Virus record (IMG/VR): IMGVR_UViG_3300037245_003904
Location: 1 to 23,103 of that record
DNA from: a virus
Length of the DNA stretch: 23,103 bases
Reading direction: 5' to 3' (one strand)
Shown here: positions 2,096-13,488 of the stretch, one piece after another
How the letters are laid out: each line of letters starts with the position of its first letter
Position numbering within the stretch: the first letter of the stretch is position 1
The notes under the pieces: model-generated
Seen by the model: only the letters and a program-made list of their open reading frames with translations
Told to the model about the DNA's origin: nothing
Databases searched by the model: none
Translations under genes and position numbers: made by a program

Positions 2096-2114
2096 TATAT
2101 TTTGGATGGATAAA

Positions 2115-3545
2115 ATGAACATTCTCGATCTGGTTAAAAATGAAAAAACAATTCGCAAAGTCGGCAACCAGAACGGCGGCGAATATCATGCTCCCTGCCC
2201 TACCTGCGGCGGCGGCGAGGACGATCCGCAAGGGTGCAGCGATCGGATGCAGTTGTTTCCGCTTCAGGGTGAGTACGGCACATGGTTCTGCCGTGGCTGC
2301 GTTAAAGGTGGTGATGCCATTGAATATCTTATTTTTCATGAGCGCCTCAGTTTTCCGGCCGCCTGTGAGGCACTCGGCAAAGAACTCCCCGAGCAGCAGG
2401 AGTACGCCACCCCGCAAACACACCGACAACAGCAGTCGCAGTTTCAACCTCGCGAGACCATCGCTCCGGCGGACGCCTGGCAGAACAAGGCCGGTGAACT
2501 TGTCGAATATGCCTACGCCGAGCTGCGGGCCAATGATGAACAGCTCGCATTTCTTCAGGCCAGGGGGATATCCGCAGCAACCGCCCATCGGCAGAAGCTT
2601 GGCTGGTTGCCTGGAGAAAACGGCAAGCCGACCCACTACCGCAGCCGCAAGTCCTGGGGTATCGATCCCAATCCGCAAGGCAAGCGACCCGACTCGCTCT
2701 GGATACCGCGCGGCATACTGGTTCCGCAGATCATCGATGACGTGGTGCAACGGATCCGCATCCGGAGACCGGAAGCCGATCGCGAGCTCTTTCTGCCTGA
2801 TCGCAGCTACCATGTCCTGCCCGGATCCGGACAGGCTCCCCTGCTTATCTATCGTGGACAACGGGTAATCACGGTTCTTGAATCTGAACTCGATGGCGTT
2901 CTGATTGAGCAGGAGGCTGGCGATCTTACCGGTATTCTCTCTATGGGTAATAGCAGTATTAAGCCAGACGCAGCCGCCCACACCGCCCTCTGTCAGGCCG
3001 ACCTGATTCTGGTCGCTCTCGATTTCGACGAAGTAAAGAAAGGGCGTCGGGCCGGTGGTCAGGCCTGGATCTGGTGGAGCCGGAATTATAAACATGCCAT
3101 CCGTTGGCCGGTAGCGATCGGCAAAGATCCCGGTGATGCATACAAAGAAGGCCTTAATATCCGAGACTGGATCCAGGCGGCCTTGCCTGCTGTATGGACC
3201 GAGGGGATTGATGGCGCGTGTGACCACGGCGGGGGGAAGGGGCCTGATCATGGCGAGGAGATTATTGACCCGACAATGCTCCGAGGGGAGCCGCCTCTCT
3301 CGGCTGTAGCCGGCATAGCTGAGCTCGGCAACATGCTGCAGGCGCACAAGTACGTTTGTGTCGACATGACCGGCGATGGTTGCAAGATCGATGCGCATCC
3401 GAATTGGCGGAAAAACTTTGATCGAGAATTTTCCAGAATCAGCAAGCTGGTTTTTCACGACAAAGCCGTTTTTAATTTTTTAGTTAATCACCCGGCCGAA
3501 ATAATCACCGGACAGAACTATTGGGAAGGAAGTGGCAATGAGTAA
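2115..3545 (+). CDS. CHC2 zinc-finger/TOPRIM primase
   Basis: This is a DnaG-like primase, expected to make RNA primers for the replicon. Counting from the upstream in-frame ATG at 2106, the N-terminal zinc-binding domain has C31/C34 (CPTC) and C62/C65 (CRGC), followed by GGDAIEYL as in CHC2 fingers. A TOPRIM-like catalytic core follows, with E259 in LESELDG, the acidic pair D306/D308 in ALDFDE, and KDPGDA at 340-345. About 100 Gln- and Pro-rich linker residues separate the domains. The C-terminal 120 residues match nothing I recognise. ATG 2115 is preferred because TGGATGG lies just upstream of it and the product then begins MNILDLV; ATG 2106 is the alternative. The stop overlaps the next gene's start by eight bases, indicating coupled translation. 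Confidence 0.87.
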   Translation: MNILDLVKNEKTIRKVGNQNGGEYHAPCPTCGGGEDDPQGCSDRMQLFPLQGEYGTWFCRGCVKGGDAIEYLIFHERLSFPAACEALGKELPEQQEYATPQTHRQQQSQFQPRETIAPADAWQNKAGELVEYAYAELRANDEQLAFLQARGISAATAHRQKLGWLPGENGKPTHYRSRKSWGIDPNPQGKRPDSLWIPRGILVPQIIDDVVQRIRIRRPEADRELFLPDRSYHVLPGSGQAPLLIYRGQRVITVLESELDGVLIEQEAGDLTGILSMGNSSIKPDAAAHTALCQADLILVALDFDEVKKGRRAGGQAWIWWSRNYKHAIRWPVAIGKDPGDAYKEGLNIRDWIQAALPAVWTEGIDGACDHGGGKGPDHGEEIIDPTMLRGEPPLSAVAGIAELGNMLQAHKYVCVDMTGDGCKIDAHPNWRKNFDREFSRISKLVFHDKAVFNFLVNHPAEIITGQNYWEGSGNE

Positions 3546-3789
3546 TCATCAAAGAAAAATGCGGCGCATCAGAGACGCCCACCTGCTTAAGTCGTGGCAT
3601 GCCTGGCTTGAAACCATCAAAGAGTTTCCTTTGGGGCAACGGCTCACCATCGCCTATCAGATCGTGCCCCGGTTGCGTATCGCTGCCCAGCTTTCCATGT
3701 TGCTGGTGGCGATCGTAGTTATTCTGGTGGCTGTCATAGTTGGTGCTATTGAGTGGCCGGGTCTTGAAGTTGGTGGCTGGTTTGAATAA
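3538..3789 (+). CDS. small single-pass membrane protein
   Basis: The product is an 83-residue protein I do not recognise. The first 50 residues are basic and amphipathic. A hydrophobic stretch of about 20 residues (near 54-73, LSMLLVAIVVILVAVIVGAI) is a clear transmembrane helix, followed by a short tail ending in WFE. The start at ATG 3538 follows GGAAGGAAG and overlaps the primase stop. The ParB gene begins 10 bases after the stop, so the three are probably one transcript. A membrane anchor or a small helper for the replication/partition machinery is possible, but nothing in the sequence proves a role. Confidence 0.6.
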   Translation: MSNHQRKMRRIRDAHLLKSWHAWLETIKEFPLGQRLTIAYQIVPRLRIAAQLSMLLVAIVVILVAVIVGAIEWPGLEVGGWFE

Positions 3790-3799
3790 GGAGAGAATA

Positions 3800-5575
3800 A
3801 TGCCTAAATCAAGTGATGCTGTATTTGCCAATATTGAATTGGCTCGCCTGTTCCCTGCTGAGCAGAACGCCCGAAAATTTAAAGACGATGCCAGCCATCG
3901 GGTGACCAAGTTTAACGAGTTGGTCGCATCGGTTCGGGAAAAAGGGATTATCGAGCCGCTAGTGGTTCGCCCGACTGGTGATGGTAATTACGAGATCATA
4001 GCTGGCGAGCGCCGTTATCGGGCTGCCATGGCTATTGCCGCCGAGACGAATATTATTTCGATTGATTATGAGGTCCCTTGCATGGTCCGGGATGTTGACG
4101 ATGCCGAGGCGTCCGATCTGGCCATCATTGAAAATCTGCAGCGTGAGGATCTGACCCCGTTCGAAGCGGCCAGCGCATTCAAGTCTTACCTCGATCAGTT
4201 CGGCAACACGCCCGAGTCGGTGTCGGATCTGGCGTCTCGCACCGGCCTGCCGGCTCACGCCATCCGGCGCCAGGTTCGTATGCTCGATCTGCCGACCGAG
4301 ATCCTTAACGTCTGGGGTGACGGCACCATCACTGCCGGTCATGTCGAAGCCTTCACCCGCATCGATGACCGTGAGTTAATTCTGCAGGTCCTCACCGAAT
4401 GTCTGCGCCGCAAGCTCTCGGTGCGAGAGTTGCGCGAACATATCAACGGTATCTCTCCCGATCTCGAAAGCGGCTTTTTTGATCAGGGAGAGTGTCAGAC
4501 CTGCCCGTCCAATACCAGCCTGCAGTCTGGACTTTTTGCCGAAATCGAAACCGACGGCAAGTGTATTAACCCGGCCTGCTTCATGAAAAAACAGGGTGCG
4601 TTCCTCACTGAGAACTGGAGCCAGAGTAAGGCCGCTGAAAAGTTCGGTACTCGCGGTTTCCGTTTCGGTGGTCAGCTCAGACAAGAAAATATGGAGATGA
4701 TCACGACTCCGGAACCTGCCGAGCGCTGCCTGAGTTGTGATGCGTTTGTCAGTCTGCTGCGGATCTCCGGCATGATTGTCGGCGGATACGCTCGCACCTG
4801 TGTCGGTTCCCGTGAATGTTTCGAGGAGCTTTATCGGCAGTCGCCTCCACCGTCTGAAGAACCGGAGCCGGAAGAAAAAACCACCCTGACAGAAGATCCT
4901 GCAGAGCAGGCCGGCCCCACCGATCCGACGTCCGCGACGCAGCCGTCCTCCGATCGTAAAACCACACCGGCGCCGGAAGAGACCGGTCCGGTCTTCTCTG
5001 CCCGGCGTGCCGAGATGTTCCGCGAAAAATTCTTAAGTGTTGCCCTGCCGGCCAAAATCGCCGAGACACCGGCCAGTCAAGCTCAGAGCTTGCGCCTGGT
5101 TGCTCTGGCGTTGGCTCTCGCCTCCCCTGCAGCAAAGACCCATCTGGTCGCCAGTCTCGGCAGTAATGATACGCCCGAGGATCTCGCCGCCAAAGTTTTC
5201 GAGATTCCCGCCGAGGATATTCACGATCAGCTGCAGCAGCTGGCTGTCGCCCAGGTCATGAGCTCCAGCTACAACGGCACGCTACCGTCTGTGCGCAAGG
5301 TGGTCGCCGAGCGGTTCGGTATCGAGCTGCACCGTGAATGGTTTATGACCGAGGATTATCTGAAGGACCTGAAAAAAAGCGAGATTGTCCGGGTCGGTGA
5401 AGAACCACAGGTCAGTCTCTGGGGGAATGAAAAGGTTGACGCCTACCGGCAGGAGAATTGCCCGGGCAAGGCACTTATGTCGCTTAGGAAAGAAGTGCTG
5501 ATCGATCTGGTTATTAAGAGCGGCATCGATCTGGTCGGCCTGGTTCCGAATGAAATCATGGACAAGAAGGGTTAA
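3800..5575 (+). CDS. PRTRC-type ParB family protein
   Basis: This 591-residue ParB-family protein is expected to bind a centromere-like DNA site and act in partition or regulation of the element. The ParB N-terminal domain covers about residues 10-120, with the nucleotide-binding motifs GERRYRA (69-75) and ENLQRED (111-117). A helix-turn-helix follows in the LASRTGLPAHAIRRQVRML region (144-162). Unlike ordinary chromosomal ParB (about 300 residues), it carries two cysteine clusters: C232/C235 with C255/C260, and C310/C313 with C334/C340. These could bind zinc. An acidic, Pro-rich linker (348-395) separates them from a helical C-terminal domain. The start is set by AAGGAGAG just upstream of ATG 3800. 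No ParA is in the window. The PRTRC assignment rests on size and the B/ThiF neighbours. Confidence 0.8.
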   Translation: MPKSSDAVFANIELARLFPAEQNARKFKDDASHRVTKFNELVASVREKGIIEPLVVRPTGDGNYEIIAGERRYRAAMAIAAETNIISIDYEVPCMVRDVDDAEASDLAIIENLQREDLTPFEAASAFKSYLDQFGNTPESVSDLASRTGLPAHAIRRQVRMLDLPTEILNVWGDGTITAGHVEAFTRIDDRELILQVLTECLRRKLSVRELREHINGISPDLESGFFDQGECQTCPSNTSLQSGLFAEIETDGKCINPACFMKKQGAFLTENWSQSKAAEKFGTRGFRFGGQLRQENMEMITTPEPAERCLSCDAFVSLLRISGMIVGGYARTCVGSRECFEELYRQSPPPSEEPEPEEKTTLTEDPAEQAGPTDPTSATQPSSDRKTTPAPEETGPVFSARRAEMFREKFLSVALPAKIAETPASQAQSLRLVALALALASPAAKTHLVASLGSNDTPEDLAAKVFEIPAEDIHDQLQQLAVAQVMSSSYNGTLPSVRKVVAERFGIELHREWFMTEDYLKDLKKSEIVRVGEEPQVSLWGNEKVDAYRQENCPGKALMSLRKEVLIDLVIKSGIDLVGLVPNEIMDKKG

Positions 5576-5583
5576 GGGTCGCT

Positions 5584-6624
5584 GTGACTGTCAACGTCAT
5601 CATCGAGCGGATCAGCGCCAGCCTCGCAGCGTGCGAGTTGCCGGCCAAACCGGAAAACGTACAGGTCGACCTGTTGTCTATGGCGGATCTGTTGCGACCG
5701 TTCGATCAGGTATTCCCCGGTCTGTGTATTGATGATGAAGACCGTCGCGACATCTTTGGTTATGGAGGCCTGCTCAAGCCTCGCCTGGTTCCTCAGGTTC
5801 GGCGTAGCGTACGGCCACTGTTGCCACCTAAACCGTTGGCTGCTCCATCTCGTTTTATCACCCCAGGCCTGTTCATCTCGGTGCAGGCGATCTGGGACTG
5901 GTACCGGCAGGAAGATGTTGCTGTAGGGGAGATGATAGACAGGGAGCTCAATGAGAAAGGGCTCGAAAAGTTTCTCGACCCGCTCTATCAGCGAGCGCAG
6001 GAATACTGGCCGCTGTTTATTCCGATCGAGAACCTTTGGTGGGATGAAGGGCTGCTGCAGCTTCCGGGCGTGTGTCTCATGTTGCCGCATTATCATGCCG
6101 AGGATGAGGGTGCCGGCGTGGTTGAGGCGTTCTTGACCGGCGCTTCCGGAATCGAGTGGTTGATGTGTCACTACTACGGCATTAAAGACTTTCTGACCCT
6201 GCCGACTGAAGATCGGGAATTGATAGACAAGCGGGGCTTCGGTGATATTTGCCGCCTTTATTACGACAAAGGCGACGGGGCCTACGATCTGCAGCAGCTG
6301 CAAAGCTTTGGCGAGACCTTCTTCGGTTCGGTTTGGGAAAAGTTCCCGGAGCACGAGAAGCTGGATCCGCCGATCATTAGTGGCGAGGCTGGTCTGGATG
6401 CCGACGTCATGATCCGTAAGGCAGAAGATATCGACTTCTGTTTCGCTTACGCCAAGGCTTTTTATGAGTTGGCGGATTGTCTGCCAGATACAAACGCTTT
6501 CGAGGAGAACGACCTCGGTGAAACCGAGACCTTTGTCCATGAGCTCTGTGAGGTGTGGCGAGTGAATTATGGCTCACCATCCGTTCCCTGGACCAGTCCG
6601 GCCGCCAAGGAGATAACAGTATGA
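5584..6624 (+). CDS. probable PRTRC protein F
   Basis: The product is 346 residues, mostly soluble, with no motif I can assign to a catalytic fold. It is rich in Trp and Tyr around residues 140-165 (a YWPLFIPIENLWW segment), with a PHYH motif shortly after, and in acidic residues toward the C-terminus. It starts at GTG 5584, eight bases after the ParB stop, with AAGGG upstream. It ends in an ATGA overlap with the B gene. Its size and its place directly before protein B match PRTRC system protein F as I recall it. That is mainly a positional argument, so the name is tentative and the function unknown. Confidence 0.5.
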   Translation: MTVNVIIERISASLAACELPAKPENVQVDLLSMADLLRPFDQVFPGLCIDDEDRRDIFGYGGLLKPRLVPQVRRSVRPLLPPKPLAAPSRFITPGLFISVQAIWDWYRQEDVAVGEMIDRELNEKGLEKFLDPLYQRAQEYWPLFIPIENLWWDEGLLQLPGVCLMLPHYHAEDEGAGVVEAFLTGASGIEWLMCHYYGIKDFLTLPTEDRELIDKRGFGDICRLYYDKGDGAYDLQQLQSFGETFFGSVWEKFPEHEKLDPPIISGEAGLDADVMIRKAEDIDFCFAYAKAFYELADCLPDTNAFEENDLGETETFVHELCEVWRVNYGSPSVPWTSPAAKEITV

Positions 6625-7271
6625 CAACCGAACTCGGTCCAGCGCACCTACAGCGCCAGCTCTACGGTGTCGGGATCTATGAAGAGGAAATTCTTTTTTC
6701 CGATTTCACCGGCAACGGCGAAAAGCGGTTTGTGGTCACGCCCGAGCAGCTGATGACTTTCTTCCGCACCGGCGTCACTTTCCGGCCGTTTCCCGGGTTG
6801 ATCTGGATGAAGGATGACGGGCTGAAGCGGAAGTATCTACTCACCCTTCCCTCTGGCCAGCGGACCATTCTTTACCGGCGTCAGAAGAAATTGACGACCC
6901 GTAAACTCCGGCTGCCGAATATGGCCGTCCAGGTCACGGTCGGATCAGAGGCCGATCAGATTTTCGGCATAAATATATGGGGATTTGCCGGTCGCCAGCT
7001 GAGGCCGGATAGTGTGCTGTATGAATTGCCTCTGCCCAATATTGGTGGATCAAGTGTTTGTCTCGGCAGTACCGAGCGGGCCCTTGGGGACGATATCCGC
7101 CAGGCGGTTGAAAAGACTCTTTTCGATACGCCGTTCAACCATCACGGCGATCTGGTCGGCAAGGCCGGGATTTCATTTGCCCGGTACCACAAGAAACATG
7201 GCGGCCGCTGTCCGCTGCACACTCTCAACCGAATCGGTCGCGGCCATGAAATTATCAGGGGGAATCGATGA
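6621..7271 (+). CDS. PRTRC protein B, E2-like active-site motif
   Basis: The product is 216 residues. At 139-149 it has PNIGGSSVCLG, which strongly resembles the active-site segment of E2 ubiquitin-conjugating enzymes (HPNI, a short glycine-containing turn, then ICLD). This makes C147 the candidate thioester cysteine. The following segment has a HH pair at 174-175, then helical sequence rich in basic and His residues. This architecture and the neighbouring ThiF gene fit PRTRC system protein B, a family I recall being linked to E2-like folds; I cannot confirm that here. ATG 6621 is preferred over an upstream GTG at 6555 because AAGGAG lies just before it and it overlaps the F stop (ATGA). The stop overlaps the ThiF start the same way. 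Confidence 0.7.
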   Translation: MTTELGPAHLQRQLYGVGIYEEEILFSDFTGNGEKRFVVTPEQLMTFFRTGVTFRPFPGLIWMKDDGLKRKYLLTLPSGQRTILYRRQKKLTTRKLRLPNMAVQVTVGSEADQIFGINIWGFAGRQLRPDSVLYELPLPNIGGSSVCLGSTERALGDDIRQAVEKTLFDTPFNHHGDLVGKAGISFARYHKKHGGRCPLHTLNRIGRGHEIIRGNR

Positions 7272-8005
7272 ACCGAAAAACCTACCTTGCACCGCAGTTC
7301 CGGCAACTGCTGCTGATCGGCACCGGCGGTACCGGCAGCTATCTCGCCCAGGGACTCGCCAAGCTGGTCGCCGGTTACCGGCTCGAGCTTGAAGTGCTGA
7401 TGGTTGATCCGGATGTGGTCGAGGAAAAGAACTGCGCCCGGCAGAATTTCCAGCCCTGGGAAGTCGGCCAGGCCAAGGCCGAGGCACTCGCTTTGCGACT
7501 CAATCAGCAATACGGAGTCGGTTTCGGTTTCCTGCAGGCGATGGGTGAGGATCAGTTCGGCGGATATCCGGATGCCTACCGCCTGATCGTCAGCTGCGTC
7601 GACACCATCGCGGCGCGTAAGCCGTGTAAAGGTCAAGGCCCCTGGCTCGATCTCGGCAATGGTCAGGAGACCGGGCAGGCCCTGTATGGCACGACCGACG
7701 ATAGGAAGCTGCTCGCTGCCGAGGTGAACAAGTGGGAGACGACTCCGCACGTCGGTCACCTGCCGAGTCCCTATCGGGTGGCTGGCATGGGTCGCCTGCG
7801 TACCGGCAAGCGACAGCCGTCCTGTGCCGACACTCCATTTGCCGAGCAGGGTATTTTCGCCAATGAATGGGCCGCCTCGGCCGGCCTCGCCATTCTGCAT
7901 CAGCTGTTGATCAAGGGAGAGTTGAGCACTCCGGCTATTTACTTCGATACAGCCAAGCCACGGGTGGTGTCGGGTTTTGTTACCAGGGATATGCTGACCT
8001 GTTGA
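7268..8005 (+). CDS. PRTRC ThiF/E1-like adenylyltransferase
   Basis: This 245-residue protein of the ThiF/MoeB/E1 superfamily would adenylate the C-terminus of a small beta-grasp partner using ATP. The Rossmann nucleotide loop GTGGTG is at 18-23 and the acidic VDPD at 46-49. The E1 signature NCARQ (55-59) supplies the Asn and Arg that contact ATP, and K70 fits the catalytic lysine. C186 (PSCAD) is a candidate for the acceptor cysteine; the protein also ends in Cys. It lacks the paired CxxC zinc site of canonical ThiF/MoeB, as expected for a short PRTRC form. ATG 7268 overlaps the B stop, implying coupled translation of putative E2- and E1-like partners. Confidence 0.87.
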   Translation: MNRKTYLAPQFRQLLLIGTGGTGSYLAQGLAKLVAGYRLELEVLMVDPDVVEEKNCARQNFQPWEVGQAKAEALALRLNQQYGVGFGFLQAMGEDQFGGYPDAYRLIVSCVDTIAARKPCKGQGPWLDLGNGQETGQALYGTTDDRKLLAAEVNKWETTPHVGHLPSPYRVAGMGRLRTGKRQPSCADTPFAEQGIFANEWAASAGLAILHQLLIKGELSTPAIYFDTAKPRVVSGFVTRDMLTC

Positions 8006-8008
8006 GTA

Positions 8009-8029
8009 GGAATATTTTTGGAATATTTT
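8009..8029. promoter_or_regulatory. GGAATATTTT direct repeat, possible operator
   Basis: GGAATATTTT occurs at 8009-8018 and again at 8020-8029, spaced 11 bases start to start, about one helical turn. The second copy extends to the near-palindrome GGAATATTTTCC. It sits in the only sizeable gap (61 bases) inside the cassette. A regulator-binding site or an AT-rich promoter element for the following small genes is possible. Confidence 0.3.
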
Positions 8030-8066
8030 CCGTCAATTTTACAAACAACTTCAAGGAGAGAGTCCC

Positions 8067-8345
8067 ATGTCAGAAACCAGAGTACAGATTGCCTATCATT
8101 TCAAGTTCGATCCGGCCAAGGAGACCCCGGGGTTGATCCGGATCCCCGAGCTGATCACCAGGACCATCGCTGTCGGTGATGAGATTATTCCTGTCAAGGT
8201 CTCCGCCGGCATTATTCCGGAAGCCGATCGTGCTGCCATGTTAGCCGAGATGGAAAAACAGGTTCGCGAGGCTACCCGTACCGCCCGATCGGCCGATGCT
8301 CCGGCAGCCGGTGCTGGTGATGATAAAGAAGAAAGCGCTTTTTAA
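8067..8345 (+). CDS. unrecognised small PRTRC-linked protein
   Basis: The product is a 92-residue protein. Residues 1-60 look like a compact beta-rich domain (VQIAYHFKF, then alternating hydrophobic strands). Residues 60-92 are a charged, Ala-rich helical tail ending DDKEESAF. The start at ATG 8067 is set by AAGGAGAG. It lies between the ThiF and C genes and has no JAMM metal motif, so it is not the usual PRTRC protein A. A short relative of PRTRC protein E is possible because of its Ala/Glu-rich helical end, but I cannot support the name. Confidence 0.55.
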   Translation: MSETRVQIAYHFKFDPAKETPGLIRIPELITRTIAVGDEIIPVKVSAGIIPEADRAAMLAEMEKQVREATRTARSADAPAAGAGDDKEESAF

Positions 8346-8361
8346 AGAGGGGAGAAGATCG

Positions 8362-8547
8362 ATGGAAGATAAAACCGACATGATCGTCAAATTCGAGGGG
8401 CGTGAGTACAACGTCCCGGCCGGGTTCACTGTTGAGGAGTTCGTCGACAGTCTGGCCACCACCAACCCCAAGGCAGCCACCGCCAAACTGATCAAGGATG
8501 GTGACGGGGTCTATACGTTGAAACCGCAGTTTAAGGATAAGGGGTGA
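8362..8547 (+). CDS. PRTRC protein C-like small protein, possible ubiquitin-like fold
   Basis: The product is 61 residues. The pattern of a short strand (MIVKFEGREYNVP), a helix (TVEEFVDSLATTNPKAATAKL) and further strands (GVYTLKP) is compatible with a small beta-grasp domain and with PRTRC system protein C as I recall it. It ends in a single glycine rather than Gly-Gly. ATG 8362 follows GGGGAGA. The TGA overlaps the start of the next gene. Next to E1- and E2-like genes it is the best candidate for a conjugated or adenylated partner, but this is inferred from context and predicted fold only. Confidence 0.55.
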   Translation: MEDKTDMIVKFEGREYNVPAGFTVEEFVDSLATTNPKAATAKLIKDGDGVYTLKPQFKDKG

Positions 8548-12216: not shown

Positions 12217-13488
12217 ATGCAGATTGAACAATGGCCGATTGAGAAGTTAACCCACTACGCAAGCAACCCGCGCAATAATGATCACGCTGTCGAGCAGATG
12301 GCGGCCGCTATCAATGAATTCGGTTTCCGGGTTCCGGTGGTCGCCAGAAGTGACGGCAGTGTGATCGATGGCCACCTCCGCCTCAAGGCGGCTATGCATC
12401 TCGGCCTCGCTCAGGTCCCAGTGGTTAATGCCGACGATCTAACCGAGGCACAGGTCAAGGCCTTCCGGATCTCGGTTAACCGTATGGCCGAGCTGGCCGG
12501 TTGGGATAGTGAGCTGCTCAAGCTCGAATTAATCGATCTGCAGGAGCTTGATTTTAACCTGGAATTGACCGGCCTCGATGCCGACACCATCGGCACCCTG
12601 CTGCACAGTGTCGATCCGGATCAGATCGGCCTCACTGATCCGGATGAGGTTCCCGATCCGCCGGTCGAGCCGATCGTTAAAAAGGGCGAGCTCTGGCGAC
12701 TCGGTCGGCATCTGCTCTATTGCGGTGATAGCACCAAAGTTGAGGATGTTGAGGCTCTGCTTGGTAACAGCAAGGCCGACATGGTCTTTACCGACCCGCC
12801 CTATCTCATGAATTTTCGCGGCAATGTCGGTGAGGGTGGGCGCAAGGCGCATAATACCAAGCATGGCCCGATCCACAACGATAAGATGTCACCAGCAGAA
12901 GGCGCTGCCTTCCTGCGTGATATCTGTAAAATCGTCAAAATCTATTGCAACGGTCCCTGGTATATCTGCTTCTATCGCCTCGGGATCGATTGGATCCTCT
13001 CAGCGATTAACGATACCGGCCTTAAATGGCGCAGCATGATCGTCTGGAAAAAGAATCAGTTTAACCTCTCCAATAGCGACTATAAATCCCTATATGAACC
13101 GATCATCACCGGCTTTGCCGATGACTTTGAGCCGATCTTCTATGGCTGGAATCTGGAGCATGGCTGGTACGGACAGAAGAACGAACGGGATGTCTGGGAG
13201 ATCGAGCTGCCCAGCATATGGGAGATCGCCCGTACCCGCGTGAATGATCTGCATCCAACCATGAAACCGGTCGAACTGGTCGAGCGGGCTATCAGTAATA
13301 GCAGTCGCCCTGGTCACACTGTTCTCGATCTGTTTGTCGGCAGCGGCACCACCTTTATTGCCGCCGAAAGAACCGGGCGCAGCTGTTACGGCATGGAGCT
13401 CGATCCGAAGTACTGCGACGTGATCATCACCCGCTGGCAAAACTTCACCGGCCAGCAGGCCGAGCGGCTCGGAGTTGGGCATGGATAG
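12217..13488 (+). CDS. ParB-domain/DNA methyltransferase fusion
   Basis: This 423-residue protein would transfer a methyl group from S-adenosylmethionine to adenine N6 or cytosine N4 of DNA. Residues 1-90 form a ParB/sulfiredoxin-like domain with GSVIDGHLRLKAA (47-59). The catalytic part has DPPY (193-196, motif IV) before FVGSGTT (373-379, motif I), the circular order of the beta class. HPTMKP is at 346-351. No restriction endonuclease is adjacent, so it is an orphan enzyme, perhaps protecting the phage genome or marking packaging sites. It is 36 bases after copy 1 of the terminase small subunit and overlaps copy 2 by eight bases, an unusual placement. AAAGG at 12201-12205 is the only upstream binding site. 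Confidence 0.88.
   Translation: MQIEQWPIEKLTHYASNPRNNDHAVEQMAAAINEFGFRVPVVARSDGSVIDGHLRLKAAMHLGLAQVPVVNADDLTEAQVKAFRISVNRMAELAGWDSELLKLELIDLQELDFNLELTGLDADTIGTLLHSVDPDQIGLTDPDEVPDPPVEPIVKKGELWRLGRHLLYCGDSTKVEDVEALLGNSKADMVFTDPPYLMNFRGNVGEGGRKAHNTKHGPIHNDKMSPAEGAAFLRDICKIVKIYCNGPWYICFYRLGIDWILSAINDTGLKWRSMIVWKKNQFNLSNSDYKSLYEPIITGFADDFEPIFYGWNLEHGWYGQKNERDVWEIELPSIWEIARTRVNDLHPTMKPVELVERAISNSSRPGHTVLDLFVGSGTTFIAAERTGRSCYGMELDPKYCDVIITRWQNFTGQQAERLGVGHG

Follow-up and report, generated by a model that had tools for sequence, protein, structure and literature searches.

A PRTRC-type predicted ubiquitin-like conjugation cassette lacking a cassette JAMM peptidase in a lambda-type phage lineage

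Cassettes of the PRTRC family (TIGR03734-03738 and further models) are carried by mobile elements, for example plasmid 1 of Aromatoleum aromaticum EbN1, and encode a ParB with a double cysteine knot, an E2-like protein (B), ThiF and a Gly-ending ubiquitin-like protein (Ubl), C. Their canonical order is ParB-E-C-F-B-A-ThiF, A being the JAMM peptidase; a search with ThiF returned 363 PRTRC records, and the cassettes occur on hundreds of sequenced plasmids. We equate PRTRC with operon class 6d of Iyer et al. 2006, an equation that is our own; according to these authors the class comprises a Ubl with a terminal Gly, a JAB protein, an E1, a helical protein and an E2 that has a histidine further downstream, and a JAB that is not fused to the E1 is always encoded in an adjacent gene (PMC1779556). 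The ISG15-like Bil system (BilABCD) also has separate Ubl, E1 and E2 proteins, the E2 with a conserved Cys and downstream His, but it lacks ParB, serves in anti-phage defence and includes a JAMM peptidase, BilC, which matures BilA at its C-terminal Gly (review PMC11354881). The subject of this report is a six-gene cassette in IMGVR_UViG_3300037245_003904, a linear virus fragment of 23,103 bases (the whole stretch is hereafter the window) that ends at a major head gene. All six genes are on the plus strand, from 3800 (ParB) to 8547 (C), in the order ParB, a protein in the position of PRTRC F, B, ThiF, a 92-aa protein termed here E-prime, and C. We consider it probable that this is a JAMM-less PRTRC-type Ubl conjugation system, with a predicted E1-E2 cascade, belonging to a lambda-type phage lineage of which some members at least are temperate.

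The resemblance of the cassette to PRTRC is not due to chance, given the profile scores of ThiF, ParB and B and the recurrence of the six-gene order in eight other distinct elements, which together with the window make up the group discussed below. As a PRTRC-type (ParB-related, ThiF-related) predicted conjugation system the machinery was already known. An earlier note, made from the letters alone, had described an E1/E2/small-protein conjugation-like module carried by a lambda-type phage and devoid of a JAMM peptidase. This description is supported, and each of the features on which it was built is present where the note placed it, namely PNIGGSSVCLG with C147, GTGGTG and NCARQ, a 92-aa reading frame, and a 61-aa reading frame ending in Gly. 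The features that bear on the conjugation chemistry are as follows.

6621..7271, plus strand: B, an E2-like (Prok-E2_D) protein of 216 aa; PF14460 at 33.7 bits against a cut-off of 25, and profile comparison (hhalign) to PRTRC B
7059..7061, plus strand: codon of Cys147, the candidate catalytic cysteine in LPNIGGSSVCLG; invariant in 19 of 19 aligned B proteins
7143..7145, plus strand: codon of His175; E2s of this class are expected to have a histidine downstream of the cysteine (PMC1779556), and this one is invariant in the nine elements
7268..8005, plus strand: ThiF, an E1-like adenylating enzyme of 245 aa; PF00899 at 40.6 bits, TIGR03736 at 110.8 bits
7823..7825, plus strand: codon of Cys186, the candidate E1 thioester cysteine; present in 36 of 36 PRTRC ThiF proteins
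8362..8547, plus strand: C, a ubiquitin-like protein of 61 aa that ends in DKG and has no tail; hhalign to PRTRC C, and predicted structure
8542..8544, plus strand: codon of the terminal Gly61, the candidate activated carboxylate; K60-G61 invariant in the nine elements

ThiF is assigned to TIGR03736 (PRTRC_ThiF) as its best family, with an E value of 7e-32, its score lying below the NCBI strict cut-off of 144.75. GxGGxG, D47, N55, R58, Q59, K70, D112, R117 and C186 are invariant in all 36 PRTRC ThiF proteins; by comparison with ThiF/MoeB-type enzymes at the level of the family, we take these to correspond to the E1 adenylation residues together with the cysteine in its usual position.

B was matched by the Prok-E2_D model (PF14460) in eight of the nine group members, and comparison of its profile with PRTRC B from other loci gave a probability of 97.7% (E 2e-12). 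E2 enzymes carry the motif HPNxxxxGxxCL, to which LPNIGGSSVCLG of B is similar. Cys147, proposed by the earlier note as the E2-type cysteine, proved invariant in an alignment that spans group members and distant PRTRC cassettes. An AlphaFold2 model of B built from 19 sequences had a pLDDT of 84.6. Comparison of this model with VIA placed UBC E2s of the UbcH7/UbcH8 type in all six best rows (Z 4.1-4.7, 114-119 residues aligned), unrelated rows ranking below them with fewer aligned residues, where a Z below 8 may reflect merely a common arrangement. Foldseek of the model against PDB gave no significant match, and a sequence search of PDB with B returned nothing. Rotavirus VP8* and similar entries, which appeared in the Foldseek output at E 0.24 or worse, were dismissed as chance beta-sheet likeness, and the viral models closest to B are unnamed phage proteins. 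The E2 fold that the earlier note expected of B is therefore supported by family profile and motif, and weakly by structure.

Single-sequence searches with C were negative: there was no NCBIfam match, the PRTRC C model TIGR03738 not being matched by single sequences, and no hit in PDB. Homology to PRTRC C consequently stands on profile-profile comparison (93% probability, E 3.5e-7, against PRTRC C from other loci) and on the predicted model. The terminal KG is likewise conserved in aligned canonical PRTRC C proteins. The model, built from 17 sequences (pLDDT 80.6, pTM 0.56), has a bb-a-bb fold with a flexible tail. Its best Foldseek rows in PDB are ubiquitin-like, led by the BAT3 Ubl at a probability of 0.99 and followed by ubiquitins mostly at 0.8-0.96, the best E value being merely 0.017; VIA returned the beta-grasp proteins G and L at Z of about 5, which is weak if taken alone. 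C is thus predicted to adopt the ubiquitin-like (beta-grasp) fold that the earlier note had thought possible.

A small beta-grasp protein with a Gly end is also the layout of ThiS and MoaD, and the window's ThiF matches ThiF and MoeB profiles, weakly. Instead of tagging proteins, ThiF and C might accordingly work as a sulfur-carrier pair, as ThiF-ThiS and MoeB-MoaD do. We consider this quite improbable, since every intact cassette has, next to these genes, one for a protein of the E2 family whose cysteine is invariant, and genes for sulfur donors or cofactors are missing from the cassette.

Nearly identical sets of records were recovered from viral contigs whether the query was ThiF, C, the 92-aa protein or B. 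The group consists of seven virus records (the window, L001, L003, L031, L032, L033 and L034; L002 duplicates L001), a 62-kb contig (L012) of a deltaproteobacterial metagenome-assembled genome (MAG), and the plasmid pGSUB1 of Geoalkalibacter subterraneus (L004). The ThiF identity is 83% for the MAG contig and 51% for pGSUB1. The order ParB, F-position protein, B, ThiF, 92-aa protein, C is found in nine of nine elements, small unrelated genes being sometimes interspersed, and B, ThiF and C are intact in all of them. The pGSUB1 cassette has identical genes in identical order and also lacks A, but it lies on a plasmid of 242 kb, complete in sequence, and small additional genes are inserted among the conserved ones. 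In a ThiF tree computed by a quick method the nine elements form one clade (SH-aLRT 99). PRTRC C was found in two of 369 genomes in a survey; a C-profile survey in the class of the MAG recovered the MAG itself, one genome whose contig position matches pGSUB1, and nothing else. Canonical PRTRC differs from the phage group, ordered ParB-F-B-ThiF-E-prime-C without A, in that the group is phage-borne, its C is unextended, and no relationship to PRTRC E and F could be detected for its E-prime and F-position proteins.

One further virus record (L066:1-2256) holds a remnant, in which ParB breaks off at its first cysteine knot, nothing is left of F, B or ThiF, and the 92-aa protein and a C ending in ENG are retained. 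This C shows a nonsynonymous divergence (dN) of 0.13-0.23 from other members, compared with 0.06 and 0.11 for two intact pairs, and dN remains below the synonymous value (dS). Either this cassette is decaying after part of it was deleted, or C and the 92-aa protein have a role for which the enzymes are not needed. The record could also be taken to mean that the cassette as a whole is decaying inherited baggage, which we regard as very unlikely indeed: the nine other elements, whose B proteins are 36-62% identical to the window's, retain all genes and candidate catalytic residues, and within the phages and the MAG contig C is 74-90% identical to that of the window.

No JAMM was found in the window with the PRTRC A and Prok-JAB models, although, the window being a genome fragment, this absence alone proves little. 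The earlier note had called for a search of the flanking genome, and longer relatives were searched in its place. The same models found nothing in G001, in G003 or in complete pGSUB1, and PRTRC A is absent from the seven virus records, the MAG and the plasmid of the group; as positive controls, the EbN1 plasmid and Burkholderia phage BgVeeders33 were matched. This last phage (OK665841) shows that PRTRC can be phage-borne in its canonical form, with A, the canonical order and a C extension of about 62 residues. Its cassette (L006:2797-6720) is annotated mostly as hypothetical proteins.

Nineteen PRTRC plasmid regions were examined to gauge how unusual the absence of A is. Ten of them lack A, and the ten whole plasmids concerned were all negative with the A model. 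PRTRC cassettes without A are thus common, A does not define the family, and the premise of the earlier note that PRTRC cassettes usually include A does not make the window's cassette exceptional. The JAMM-less plasmid cassettes (Pseudomonas fulva, Alteromonas, Vibrio vulnificus, Aeromonas, Deinococcus) share with the phage group a C that ends exactly at Gly, but their gene order is the canonical one, PRTRC E is still recognisable in them, and they are distant in the ThiF tree. A Deinococcus proteolyticus plasmid (L005:1418-6663) lacks A, has one C and carries two tandem B-ThiF pairs, each of which follows a gene in the F position.

A JAMM could nevertheless act in trans, encoded in the host or elsewhere in the phage, in which case the system would be of the normal reversible kind. 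In favour of this, L031 has a RadC-type JAMM gene (GHNHPSGDPTPS) directly upstream of ParB (L031:5753-6196), the phage of L033 has among its tail genes a lambda K-like JAB/NlpC protein (L045:3892-5252, minus strand) adjoining a lambda I-like protein, and a RadC gene lies elsewhere in the MAG that holds L012. Neither of the two phage genes is common to the group; RadC is near the cassette in one of nine elements, the tail JAB is in one virus record, and in the remaining elements, complete pGSUB1 included, TIGR03735, PF14464 and PF04002 gave no significant match. Moreover, C has nothing to trim. Provision of a JAMM in trans is in our judgement unlikely. The JAB/NlpC and lambda I-like proteins of the L033 phage constitute a second JAMM and ubiquitin-like pair in the same virus.

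What A does in the cassettes that have it is suggested by the C-terminus of C. In many A-containing cassettes C runs 5-100 residues beyond KG, whereas in A-less cassettes it stops exactly at the terminal Gly (KG, RG or NG). For 36 loci with a clear C, a tail and A occur together in 14, A without a tail in three, a tail without A in none and neither in 19 (Fisher p 1.8e-7, the loci being related), with absence of A judged for L013, L017, L028 and L030 within the contig stretch around the cassette only. The table omits L015, L016, L025, L026, L029, L037, L038, L050, L053 and L060-L064, in which C is missing, cut, unclear or frameshifted. This pattern, a new point of the present analysis and phylogenetically not yet significant, suggests that A may be a Ubl-maturation peptidase that trims the extension of C to expose the reactive glycine, by analogy with BilC and BilA. 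A C that is encoded ending at its reactive glycine would need no peptidase for maturation, which would explain how A can be absent. ATG12, FAT10 and URM1 are encoded already mature in eukaryotes (review PMC11354881).

For the cassette of the window, read as a JAMM-less conjugation system, the following cascade is predicted. ThiF would adenylate the C-terminal Gly61 of C and take C as a thioester on Cys186; C would then pass to Cys147 of B, which would join it to a target protein. With no isopeptidase in the cassette the modification would probably be long-lived or irreversible, like that by mature-encoded ATG12. The likely targets would be proteins bound to the element's own DNA, the zinc-knotted ParB serving as DNA tether or substrate and not in plasmid segregation.

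Several points weigh against this interpretation. We found in the literature no biochemistry for any PRTRC system and no named substrate, and among publications mentioning PRTRC, judged from titles and abstracts with partial journal coverage, there was no tested function. The structural match of B to the E2 fold is weak, a JAMM could act in trans as set out above, and L066 is a virus record that has kept C and E-prime after losing E1, E2, F and half of ParB. With regard to maturation by A, the association of tail and A comes down to about six changes of A and about seven of the tail on the tree; an independent-pairs test was not significant, there being too few pairs, with zero pairs contradicting the pattern, and three of the loci with A have an untailed C.

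The remaining features of the cassette are these.

3800..5575, plus strand: PRTRC-type ParB of 591 aa from ATG (an alternative TTG start at 3740 is possible); PF02195, PF17762, TIGR03734
4493..4819, plus strand: ParB cysteine pairs C232/C235/C255/C260 and C310/C313/C340, two predicted zinc knots; kept in 25-28 of 28 PRTRC ParB proteins from phages and plasmids
5584..6624, plus strand: protein of 346 aa in the PRTRC F position; conserved in all nine elements
8067..8345, plus strand: E-prime, 92 aa; an alignment of nine shows a conserved domain, a variable linker and a conserved acidic tip ending in SAF

ATGA stop/start overlaps at the F-B and B-ThiF junctions indicate an operon and suggest translational coupling. 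ParB has as its best family TIGR03734 (PRTRC_parB; 183.5 bits, E 6e-54), under the NCBI strict cut-off of 278.6. In PRTRC ParB proteins the cysteine knots are located after the helix-turn-helix, and they could form a protein-binding or zinc-binding adaptor surface. Elsewhere in the window, at 12217-13488, a ParB N-terminal domain is joined to an N6/N4 DNA methylase.

The earlier note had considered a role in partition or as an anti-host or anti-phage device. In a partition module, ParB would segregate the phage as an episome and the other genes would have regulatory roles; ParB is indeed present in every intact cassette of the group, and PRTRC is common on plasmids. ParA was not matched in any of the seven virus records, three of which have tyrosine integrases, and two PRTRC plasmid loci (L059, L063) have a separate ParA nearby. 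A partition role is on this evidence disfavoured, and we hold it to be very improbable. For an anti-host or anti-phage role no evidence was obtained, the PADLOC defence models (CBASS, Bil and other known systems) matching only ThiF, through the generic E1 half of E1-E2 proteins.

The F-position protein is 25-39% identical to those of three other group members; profile comparison detected no homology between it and PRTRC F (hhalign probability 0.2%), with which it shares the position before B. E-prime is found solely alongside the group cassette or its remnant. A reading of E-prime as a reduced PRTRC E was tried and is unsupported: hhalign to the E profile gave 0.1-0.2%, and the sole likeness is a hydrophobic C-terminal tip. 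In most relatives this tip reads (E)E-[ILM]-S-A-F, the window's version (8328-8342) being EESAF, and PRTRC E proteins frequently end in NLFA, DLFG, SLF or the like. Both kinds of tip resemble those by which proteins bind sliding clamps or single-stranded DNA-binding protein (SSB), a likeness that is a lead only and hints at a link to the replisome. On plasmids, sliding-clamp or clamp-loader genes lie within a few kb of several PRTRC cassettes (L056, L059, L060, L061, L063).

In the window the cassette separates the replication genes of a lambda-type phage from those for packaging. It adjoins a primase-helicase, the upstream genes encoding a D5-type primase-helicase (232-1803) and a primase-like protein (2106-3545). 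The structural genes of the window are of lambda type, encoding a large terminase gpA, a lambda-family portal, a head protease, and decoration and major head proteins.

As a wider and tentative proposal, which we put forward as possible rather than likely, PRTRC A may be the maturation peptidase of a Ubl precursor, and cassettes with a mature C may have lost A repeatedly, leaving a peptidase-free and effectively irreversible, ATG12-like modification; the phage lineage would use it, through ParB and possibly the replisome, on proteins that sit on the phage's own DNA as it replicates. The pattern of tail and A makes the role of the PRTRC JAMM addressable by a simple cleavage assay. In the phage group, moreover, E1, E2 and Ubl are small separate proteins, a compact natural set whose cassette encodes no deconjugating enzyme, so that conjugates should accumulate and be easier to detect. 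If the interpretation as a conjugation system is true, phages would employ ubiquitin-like tagging in their own life cycle, and not merely face it as a host defence.

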